Shown here one piece after another: positions 2,121-8,100 of a stretch of DNA of 64,000 nucleotides; the first letter of the stretch is position 1; the number at the start of each line of letters is the position of its first letter. This DNA is from Bolinopsis microptera. Lineage: Eukaryota > Ctenophora > Tentaculata > Lobata > Bolinopsidae. The position numbers and the translations under genes are program-made. The stretch lies in assembly GCF_026151205.1 (NCBI RefSeq), contig NC_087079.1:8422635-8486634 (forward strand). Direction: 5' to 3'. The notes under the pieces are model-generated. The model was not told the origin of the DNA. It made no database searches and saw nothing but the letters and a program-made list of their open reading frames with translations.

Positions 2121-5100
2121 GTAGGCATACCACTCCATTTAGATTCTTGAGCATTGGGGGTAACGAGATAAGAGTCTCATACGCTGATAACGTTTGAAAT
2201 TAAAAGCCGTGCCAGAAAAACTCGTATTATGCCTTTTTTTTGTTCGAAAACCTACCCTTCGAAAATATCAGAATCGTACAACACGAAATGCGTACGGCGC
2301 GAAGGTTTCAGTGGTAATTGTTTGCGCGCAAATAGTCACGCGCGTATATACGATCACGTACGTACGTACGTATAATTAATTTGAATACATTTTATGATAC
2401 AGAAGTTGGTCCGATCACTTGCCACAACTTGAGCCCCGAAGAATGGAATACTCATGATGAAAACTCAGATATAAAATTATTTTCACTATTATTATTCGGC
2501 GTAGAGATGTATATTATCTTGTGCCTCTCTCATCCATGCATTTTTAACAGATTTAAATTCGGAAAAGTCACAGCATTCACTCACATCTGCTGGGTTTAAT
2601 TTATTTATTCATTAAATTAATCAGTGAAATCATCTACCGCGCAGTAGCACATGCACTCTGATTAAAGTACACCTTCTTAAAGATGAAATTGCCATGGCAA
2701 CAGCCTGGTCCCGTACTAGTTTGCTATATCGCACGTGCACGTTAGCTATTTTGCTATTACAAATCTATTACGTTCTAAAGTTAACCTCTCAAAGAAAATA
2801 AGAAACAACCCCAAGATGGTTTTTTCAAACCTTATGAATAGAAGCTCTCTATACGAGACTGAGGTGATACAGATAAGGATTGAACCGGAATTTCAAGTGC
2901 CTGCATCATCATTAAGGTCAAATGATACAGACAGTATCATATATTTCGGCCGTTCGACCGACAACATCTTCCTCACCGAAGACGCGAGTTTATTCGCCCT
3001 TCCAGGATGTGTTGAGGATCAGGTCCAAGAGACGGATTCCAACAATTGGGTGGGATCCTTCCAACAACGTGAAGAAACGCAGCCTGCTTTTAACTTGCTG
3101 CCTCATGGCCGACGGAAGAAGAGCTTCCGGGCTAAAGTAAAGACGCTTTTCTCTGGAAAAGGTTACTATCGACGAGCAGCTTATGCTGTCGATAGTAAAA
3201 CTACGAAGTTTGGCGATTCGTTCACCACATCTGCTACGAAATTGAAGACATTGCTAAAAAGCTCCATGCCTGAACCATCATGGGCAGTCTTTGATGACTT
3301 ATTTAGTAGAGGGAATATGACCTTAATTCCTTTCCCAATGCAACAATCGGCCAGAATATAAGGACCGACAACTGACAAGGAGCGCGGCACGTCGAAGCGG
3401 CGACGTCCTTCAAAGTATTAAGAACATAAAGATTGATACAGCAATATTGGTGCAGACAAGATCGACACTGGCATTCCAGTAGTGACGACGTCAACGGACG
3501 AAAATGATGAAATCAGAAATACAACATCTACAGGACAAAGCAAAGCAAGAATACTGCTCTGGCACATTCACTTGTATTATTATCAAAATCATATCAGGTT
3601 TTAAAAAAGGAAAAAAAAAGGATTTGTATCCCAAAAAACACACAAAAAAAAGATACATCCAAAAAAAGCCAAAAAAAAAATATTCTATACTTTCTTACAC
3701 TTTCCGAGGCCAGAATTTGTAGTGTTACTTGTACTAACAACTAATTATACGAAAATAAATCGAGGGTTGTAATCAAAATTATAACTTGGAAATCTTAATC
3801 TTCTGGATGGAAACAAAAGAGGGCACTAAGAAACGTGAAAATTATGGTAGATAACAAACTAACAAAACATTTAACTGTGCGCCGTGCGGATCTTTTAATC
3901 ATTGTTCAAACGTCTAGGGATTAGTGTGGCACTTATAAATGCCAAGAACCTCGCTTATAGTGTAATTTAGCTAACTACTTAAAGAAGTATGTCAAAGTTT
4001 AGATGTCCGGAGGATTTGAAAACCACTGCTGCAATGGTACAACATTGTTCCTGTTTTTAGTCAAAGCACCACTCTTTACCCGAAGCGTGTCTCGTGTATG
4101 TAGTAATACAGTGGGGTGACATATGTTTTCGTCACTTCTGAATGCGCGCATTTTAGCGCGCGAGTTTGCGTGCACGTCACGTGATATTGTTAGCAGTGAG
4201 TGTAATCACGAGTCTGGAGAATTTGTCTAGTACAAGGCCCAGACCCTTTGGCGTATCTGTAGTAAATTTTGTGGCGATGTAATATCTATGACACCACTAA
4301 AAATTGAGGAATAGGGAAGTGTTCACAATATCCAACTTAGCATGGTAAACTTATGCTATCTCTGGCTGAAGATTAACAACTCTAACAGTATTTATTTTAA
4401 TCAACTGAGAAACATTTGGTCTTGTTACCTTATCAATTTTATCGAAATCGAACGATGCAGTACAAAGATATTCCGTTTTAAACTTCATGGTAATATTGAA
4501 GTAGACAAAAGTTCGTCGCTTGCTATTAAAACATGTGCTCCTTCATAAATAATATCATTATCGTGATCAAACCCCTTATTTATGGGCCTGCCAGTCTCTT
4601 CTGAAGCACGAATGAACTTAATTTCTACTGTCCGAGAAAAGTTCAGAATTTTCTCTAAACACCCATTTTTGAATTTTGTAAATCGGTGGTCCGGAAGCGG
4701 AGTTATGGTTCAATGAAAATTGTTAGTTTAACGCTGTTTGTATTGTCATTATCAGAAGTGACGAAAACATATGTCACCCCACTGTACAAGATTAAACCTT
4801 CGTAAACGCATTCGCTAACATCTATGTATTGTTGCGTTTAATTTATTGATTATTACTACATAATTAATTAGTGAAATCATCTGCCGCGCAGTAGCTCGCC
4901 CTAGTACTCCTTCATAAAGATGAAATTGACAAGGCAACAGCCTGCTCCCGTATTAGTTCTCCATGTCCCACTTGCACATTAGCTATTTCTCTATTTCCAT
5001 TTCAATACGTTACTAAGTAAAACCTCTTAAAAAAACGACCTCAAAATGGTATTTTCAAATCTTTTGAATCGAAGATCTGTAAATGCCTACGAGATGACTG

Positions 5101-8100
5101 AGGCGACGCCGATACTGATTGAACCAGAACTCCGGGTACCTGCATCATCTCGAAGGTACAGGCAGTCTCGTCCATTTCGGCCGTTCGACCGACGACATCT
5201 TCTCCACCGAAGACGCGAGTTTATTCGCCCTTCCAGGGTGTGTTGAGGATGAGGTACAAGAGATGGATTCCAACAACTGGGTGGGATCCTTCCAACAACG
5301 TGAAGAAACGCAGCCTGCTTTTAACTTGCTGCCTCATGGCCGACAGAAGAAGAGCTTCCGGGCTAAAATGAAGAAGTTTTTCTCCGGAAGAGGTTACTAT
5401 CGACGGGCAGCGTATGCTGTCGATAGTAAAACTACGAAGTTCGGTGATTCTTTCGCCACATCTGCTACAAAATTGAAGACATTGCTATTGCTAAAAAGCT
5501 TCATGGAGCGGCTAAGAATGCTTGAACCATCATGGGCAGACTTTGATGATCTATTCAGTGGAGGGAATATGAGCTTAATTCCTTTCCCTATGCACTAAAT
5601 GGCCAGAATATAAGAATCGACAAGGAGAACCAAAATTTGTATCAGCTCCGCTACGATCTCGTCACGAGATCGAAGCGAAGCAAGCAATGAGCGCGGCACG
5701 TCGAAGAGACAAGATTGTTGCAGATGAACTATAACATCTACAGAACAGAAGAAAGCAAGAATAAACAAGATACGTCCTAAAAAAGCCAAACAAAATATTT
5801 TCTATTCTTTCTTACCACTTTCCGAAGCCCGAATTCGTAGTGTTACTTGTACCAACAACTAATTATACGCAAGTAAATCGTAGATTATAATCAAAATGAT
5901 AATTTGGAAATCTTAATCTACTGGGTGGAAACAAGAAACGTGAAAATTAAAGTATATATAACAAACGTGTCACCATGTTACTGCGCAGATCTGTTAACCA
6001 ATGTTAAAGCTTCTAGTGCAGCACTAAATATCAGGAACCTTGCTTATAGTGTAATCTAGCTGACTACTTTTTTTAAAAAGTTACTGAAAAGCTACTGCAG
6101 CGTTACATTATTCATATTCTAAGTCTAAGCACCATTCTTATTTCTTAACCCGAAGCGTGTCTGGTCTATGTAGTCATATAAGATTAAACCTTCTCAAATA
6201 AAACGAATATTACTCTTTTATGTAGCTCAAAAGAAAGAAGAATGAGAAATTTTAACTTGATGAACGGCAACGGGTCGTGTTCATGGAAACGAATTCTACT
6301 TTCGAAATATAAGTAACGTTTAATGACCTTACTAAGCTAGATTTGAGGTCGACCGAAATGAAGTGAAATATTAGAGTCCCGATCAGCTTATGAAAAGGCG
6401 TGACCTCAAACCATGAAATCAATTAGAATTCATAAAATTTCGCTGAGAACCGATGCGATCGATTACCAAGGAATAGGATCGTGCCCTCACAGCAGCAGCT
6501 ATTTGTGATCTGAATCCTTAAAAGAATTGAGTTTCAATTATCGTTGCACCAGTTGAATCAGCGTACTGTCCAATATACTGACAGGAAGGGTAACGGGTAT
6601 GTGAACTATTTTAAACATGGAATTCAGTTGACAGTTGGTTTGCGCTACATGAGTTGTTTCCTTTGAGTCTCAAAACAACACACACACACACACACACACA
6701 CACACACACACACACACACACACACACACACACACACACACACACACACACACACACACACACACACACACACACACACACACACACACACACACACACA
6801 CACACACACACACACACACACACACACACACACACACACACACACACACACACACACACACACACACACACACACACACACACACACACACACACACACA
6901 CACACACACACACACACACACACACACACACACACACACACACACACACACACACACACACACACACACACACACACACACACACACACACACACACACA
7001 CACACACACACACACACACACACACACACACACACACACACACACACACACACACACACACACACACACACACACACACACACACACACACACACACACA
7101 CACACACACACACACACACACACACACACACACACACACACACACACACACACACACACACACACACACACACACACACACACACACACACACACACACA
7201 CACACACACACACACACACACACACACACACACACACACACACACACACACACACACACACACACACACACACACACACACACACACACACACACACACA
7301 CACACACACACACACACACACACACACACACACACACAATCCGATTGGTAAATGCGACAAAAGAAATCAGAATTTGGACGATTGGCACCCCAAAATAGCT
7401 AGTATGTACATATTTTCTATCGATTACTTCTTGGAATCTCATAATGGCATTATTTGAGTTCCGAATAAGGTCCACGCTGCGACGCTGCGTTGAAATGAAA
7501 ACCAAATAGAATAATATATAACATTGATAGGCAATTCAGTAATGTGGCAAAGCACGGTTAACGCACTGTTAAGGCACGGTTAAGGCACGGTTAAAGCACA
7601 GTTAAGGGACGGTTAAGGCAGTTTGTGCCTTAACCGTGCGTTAACCGTGCGTTAACCGTGCGTTAACCGTGCGTTAACCGTGCGTTAACCGTGCGTTAAC
7701 CGTGCGTTAACCGTGCCTTAAGAACCGTGCCTTATGTAACCCTTGTGCCTTAACCGTGCCTTAACCTTGCTTTAACCGTGCCTTAACCGTGCCTTAACCG
7801 TGCTTTGCCACATTACTGAATTGCCCATTAATATTTACAACAACATATATCGATAAGATTTTTAACATCAATTTATTGAGTCCTTGGGACTCCTAATTCA
7901 CTAAGCTTTGATACAAAGCATGCAAACTCAAAGTCGCTTTCACAACTTTTGTCAACTGTATTGACAGAAGATCTGGTTCCTCTTATACACAGGAGAACCA
8001 GCTTCCTGATAAAAAAAGATAATTTACATCTTAAACAAGAATTGCGCCCGTTGTTTCGTTTTGGCGGACGCTAGATTTCCGTTCACTATAACTATAAATA

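Follow-up and report, generated by a model that had tools for sequence, protein, structure and literature searches.

Nested intronic genes are complete open reading frames (ORFs) that lie inside an intron of another gene. We analyzed such an arrangement in a 64,000-base stretch of DNA (the window; bases 8,422,635–8,486,634 of contig C8; GC content 0.374), in which two tandem units, A and B, each carrying a copy of a gene for an undescribed protein, lie within an intron of an SLC4-type gene. Copy A is a complete ORF within the intron 2121–11082, as expected of a nested gene, but, unlike in the known nested arrangements, most members of its family are found elsewhere than in this intron.

Other described systems offer partial parallels. 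Lophotrochin and trochin (PMC7441323) have spiralian-specific motifs and are expressed in ciliary bands. Like them, the family described here appears to keep a motif within one lineage, with no detection outside it in the libraries compared, and has a proposed link with ciliated cells; unlike them, it comprises many single-exon genes, and its link with cilia is drawn from a promoter motif. In the mouse, haploid sperm genes and ciliary genes are under the control of RFX2 (PMC4498915). As in the X-box targets of RFX factors, a site of the X-box type precedes the ATG at a conserved position in the family, and the site of copy A fits a restricted consensus; in contrast to those targets, the other subfamilies fit only a looser consensus. 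Young, recently expanded families of sperm-related regions of nematodes (PMC8480184) likewise combine novel genes with recent duplication. What is new here, judging from the alignments, is an upstream block that the intact copies of different subfamilies have in common.

The host intron (2121–11082, plus strand, about 9 kb) was defined by the splicing of exons 890–993, 1584–1725, 2046–2120 and 11083–11213 into a single open frame, the translation of which matched Band_3_cyto in Pfam (9.2e-43). As the original prediction had it, the pair lies inside this intron on the host strand, and its flanks are duplicated too: unit A (2550–4106, plus strand) and unit B (4787–6182, plus strand) stand head to tail as a tandem duplication with the flanks included. 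Copy A (2816–3361, plus strand) is an intact single-exon ORF of 181 amino acids. Contrary to the prediction of two intact copies, copy B (5046–5598, plus strand) is broken: a deletion of 8 bp at 5156/5157 closes the reading frame and leaves a 66-amino-acid ORF (5046–5246). The C-terminal frame of copy B is still open at 5119–5595, and the first ATG there (5263) would give 111 amino acids. Programmed frameshifting in copy B was considered and dropped, as the other broken copies of the family are interrupted at other places.

The coding parts of A and B are identical at 0.881 of 538 aligned bases, and the 5' and 3' flanks at 0.762 (244 bases) and 0.732 (555 bases), respectively. The predicted in-frame indels of 6 and 15 bp near the C terminus are present and are joined by one of 9 bp near the N terminus; the fourth coding indel, that of 8 bp, breaks the frame, so that three of the four are in frame. 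The flanks carry many other indels, as had been noted earlier: 6 in the 5' flank (1 a multiple of three) and 12 in the 3' flank (5 multiples of three). Its location in the SLC4 intron, on the same strand, would fit an alternative SLC4 exon, but the ORF has its own ATG and stop codon, 19 relatives of it are found elsewhere in the genome, and the SLC4 exons join in frame without it, which makes this explanation highly improbable.

When the whole genome (264.65-Mb assembly, 232 contigs) was searched at the protein level (cut-off E ≤ 0.001), the family was found at 21 places on contigs C2, C5, C8 and C9, both window copies counted. A second query recovered 20 of the 21 places and added no new one, and a match on contig C11 (E 7.11) was dropped as chance. 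We are confident that this is a real gene family, as originally predicted, with the correction that it is not confined to the intron: there are 19 further places, which are covered by 18 stretches of 9–10 kb. Several intact ORFs of one protein are present, full-length and single-exon at 8 of the 21 places, with lengths of 175–208 amino acids (copy A, 181; L025, 175; L026, 178; L027 and L028, 205 each; L029, 208; L030 and L032, 207 each). The remaining 13 places are broken, altered or remnant, and copy loss is frequent in the family. In a tree of 11 rows three branches were starred, namely the L027–L032 group (100/100), A with B (100/99), and L025, L026 and L036 with L033 (96/96). L028 contains a ninth open ORF in its second copy, the N terminus of which is replaced. 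It arises from a 2.3-kb tandem duplication (L028 3849–8395, 99.9% identity) that gives this copy a new open N terminus; by its sequence, it is a fresh chimeric ORF. In the literature, no title or abstract could be tied to the family, which is a weak test.

The maximum likelihood (ML) ratios of nonsynonymous to synonymous substitution rates (dN/dS) between subfamilies were 0.02–0.25 over 17 pairs, with dS near or past saturation, and because of these ratios we conclude from the alignments that the family is under purifying selection. Copy A compared with the seven other intact members gave 0.14–0.25 at dS 1.9–2.8, and the comparison between the other two groups gave 0.02–0.05 at dS 7.6–16, which is past saturation. 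For codons 45–173 of A and B, dN was 0.057 and dS 0.180, a ratio of 0.32 (bootstrap 0.13–0.69). Within groups, the Nei–Gojobori (NG86) ratios ranged from 0.09 to 1.39 on few changes. Third positions dominated the differences between A and L026 (57, 45 and 97 at codon positions 1, 2 and 3, respectively, over 163 codons). In a neutral, substitution-only simulation, the frames stayed open in 215, 12, 1 and 0 of 2000 runs at 0.1, 0.3, 0.5 and 1.0 substitutions per site, respectively. The constraint on the protein that had been suspected from the indels is thus seen in ratios well under 1, not near it. The window copies could instead be non-functional relics that are alike through recent duplication only, as might be thought from the state of copy B and of the family places that are broken, altered or remnant. 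Copy A, however, is open over its 181 codons, differs from the other subfamilies at the low dN/dS given above, and has an intact upstream block; we consider it unlikely that the pair consists of relics. It is rather probable that the family has its own promoter, with copy A as a functioning member and copy B as a broken one.

Upstream conservation was followed in 30-column windows of an alignment of copy A with L025 and L027, one from each of the other groups. Subfamilies share a conserved block from about −160 to −80, and its conservation exceeds that of the coding start: invariant columns numbered at most 9 per window upstream of −161, 14 at −161, 22 at −151 and −141, 20 at −131, 14–16 from there to −91, 5–10 up to −23, and 13–15 at the coding start. 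In copy A, the block was located by alignment at 2655–2740 (plus strand), and as DNA the segment 2666–2762 matches 3 places in the genome, all of them family copies. It contains an X-box-like (RFX) site, ATTGCCATGGCAAC (2688–2701, plus strand), and a CACGTG palindrome, GCACGTGC, which is an E-box (2731–2738, plus strand), both found by pattern search, as well as a conserved CCTTCATAAAGATGAA stretch. The X-box site of copy B (4925–4938, plus strand) has one mismatch to the strict form, ATTGCY N1–3 GGYAAC.

Motifs were counted in the window and the fetched family loci, 235,919 bases altogether; L043, a copy of a stretch of the window, did not enter the counts of the general and restricted X-box consensus, of the E-box, or of the X-box together with the E-box. 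The strict X-box form occurred at 11 distinct sites, every one in the upstream block, and in 8 of the 8 intact copies and 3 of the 13 others; L031 has lost its X-box. GCACGTGC by itself occurred at 19 sites, 12 of them in the block, and the X-box together with the E-box at 10 sites, every one in the block (the 8 intact copies and the broken copies L036 and L037). All 8 intact copies therefore have an X-box close to the ATG in a conserved position. All of them also fit the general X-box consensus given in PMC2375033, and copy A is the sole copy that fits the restricted consensus given there, the chance of which in some 300 bases is near 1%. RFX DNA-binding domains are encoded at two loci of the genome. 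By analogy, an X-box-like block is of a kind often linked to cilia.

The most far-reaching interpretation, to which we give a probability of roughly 0.27, is that of an undescribed family, possibly specific to ctenophores, whose disordered proteins would take part in a ciliary programme (comb-plate or sperm) and would be switched on by an RFX X-box and E-box block travelling with each copy, so that new copies, including that in the SLC4 intron, would come pre-wired. In our main reading, every copy would have a promoter of its own and be transcribed independently of the host gene. Expression in ciliated cells or sperm would be driven by an RFX factor, acting at the X-box, and a further factor at the E-box; the protein would serve as an adaptor or regulator by means of short linear motifs, and the copies would multiply by DNA-level duplication as self-contained units carrying their own switch. 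The part of the main reading that places the gene under RFX in ciliated or sperm cells is tentative, its chance being somewhat below even.

Several observations weigh against it. The general X-box consensus is frequent, with 348 starts in the 235,919 bases (1.48 per kb); in the fly genome it has about 50,000 matches and is met as often in negative-control genes, according to PMC2375033. The restricted consensus has 9 sites in the same bases, 8 besides that of copy A, and the E-box alone also occurs at 7 sites outside the block. The intact copies of group 1 are recent, hence 8 of 8 do not make eight independent observations, and in the group-2 copies L026 and L037 the conservation begins at the X-box itself. 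As to selection, the ML dS values of 7.6–16 are unreliable and NG86 was saturated or not computable in 11 of the 28 pairs, the ratio exceeds 1 in the close pair L027/L028, which differs by few changes, and dN/dS averages the whole history, which leaves room for a recent loss of function in copy A. The low-confidence protein model, described below, may equally reflect a thin alignment. Close to an even chance goes to a real family with its own promoter in which the block is read by other factors, without any link to cilia or sperm. The commonness of the general X-box consensus would fit that, as would the presence in the block of the CACGTG palindrome and the conserved CCTTCATAAAGATGAA stretch, whereas the fit of the copy A site to the restricted RFX consensus and the presence of RFX factors in the genome favor an RFX-controlled family.

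The protein is small and basic. Its sequence has three blocks: YE(I)TxV at the N terminus, a basic one (NLLPNGRRKKSFRTK...RRAAYAxDS), and, at the C terminus, an acidic-aromatic one (SWxxFDDLFS...IPF). Invariant across the 11 rows are, among others, FNxLP, KK, RRAAYAxDS and WxxFDxxFS...IP. Two AlphaFold models were of low confidence throughout (predicted local distance difference test scores, pLDDT, of 51.3 and 43.8; predicted template modeling scores, pTM, of 0.11 and 0.19), and our reading of them is that the protein may be mostly disordered and motif-based. Judged by eye, it seems to be without a signal peptide. That the protein would be an unrecognized one was borne out in all libraries compared: four family proteins had no Pfam match at E ≤ 1, copy A had no match among the PDB sequences, the one match in PHROGs (E 0.32) was taken as chance, and searches with two short peptide patterns gave 60 pattern stretches in viral contigs and 74 in prokaryote genomes, of which 0 were confirmed in either set. 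A scan of the whole window against Rfam found no relative of the family. The comparisons covered Pfam, PDB, PHROGs, viral contigs and prokaryote genomes, and the family may be lineage-restricted.

The copies of the L027–L032 group share about 1.4–1.5 kb, with ends that vary by tens of bases, while other copies lie within 5.0- and 8.7-kb duplications or in tandem. At the edges of five copies (those of L025 and L026 being the ends of the alignment), target duplications, inverted repeats and poly(A) were not seen beyond chance: the longest direct or inverted match was equalled by at least 9% of random pairs, and A runs did not exceed 4. Retrocopying and terminal-repeat elements are thus not supported by the copy edges. 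The sequences agree best with duplication at the DNA level, accompanied by birth and death of copies. The alternative that the ORF is a part or cargo of a mobile element, and that the copies are transposon copies, draws on the dispersal of the family over four contigs, on the common length and sharp ends of the group-1 copies, and on the transposon between A and B. It is at odds with the copy edges and with the Pfam search (four proteins, E ≤ 1), in which, as the original prediction required of a genuine gene family, no transposon protein was matched. The 5' and 3' elements, as DNA, matched only family copies (3 and 6 places), some copies lie inside the 5.0- and 8.7-kb duplications, and the 680-bp transposon is unrelated to the family, its copies elsewhere being without gene sequence in the query used. 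We therefore hold a mobile origin to be improbable, and DNA-level duplication of self-contained units is the mode of spread that we retain.

A second conserved non-coding element of about 80 bases follows the gene, at 3660–3760 (plus strand) in copy A, about 300–400 bases past the stop codon, and, by alignment, at 5778–5879 (plus strand) in copy B. It is present in A, B, L025, L026, L033, L034, L036, L037 and L038, and in the remnants L039–L042, and none was found in the L027–L032 group. Its 6 matching places in the genome as DNA are all beside family copies. RNA structure prediction on the element gave no structure; our guess is that it could be an element of the 3' untranslated region. This element, the upstream block, the genome-wide family and the 680-bp transposon go beyond what was originally predicted.

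The transposon (4107–4786, no strand assigned) is inserted between units A and B. Its inverted repeats are perfect over 35 bp, its target is TA, and it is non-autonomous. At least 107 match pieces were found in the genome, with 40 of 113 candidates scored. Since several full-length copies on other contigs have 98–100% identity, the element must have moved recently.

Other features were recorded in the window and the genome. Very long and nearly perfect (AC)n arrays occupy 6678–7338 (661 bases) and 47137–47538 (402 bases). At 7520–7835, a large inverted repeat carries 11-base tandem repeats (GCACGGTTAAG or its complement) on each arm and might fold into a long hairpin. A direct duplication of 700 bases with 99% identity, containing G runs and internal inverted repeats, lies at 9481–10824. 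A 17-base tandem repeat at 19409–19444 recurs in equal context 3.3 kb away, at 22703–22738, and this points to a recent duplication. By eye, the segment 27770–28234 (minus strand) resembles the beginning of a basic helix-loop-helix region, possibly that of a PAS-domain gene; neither this piece nor 26317–27030 was assigned to a family by Pfam. A search for COX1 gave no match. The genome also has a large set of ionotropic glutamate receptor genes (L045 and others, 32 match pieces), several of which are single open frames of more than 900 amino acids.

If the genes are expressed as proposed, this would be a young family in which selection preserves the promoter block as well as the protein, and which spreads in the form of units carrying their own switch. 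If the organism is a ctenophore, the family may provide a handle on the proteins that are special to the most cilia-dependent animals.

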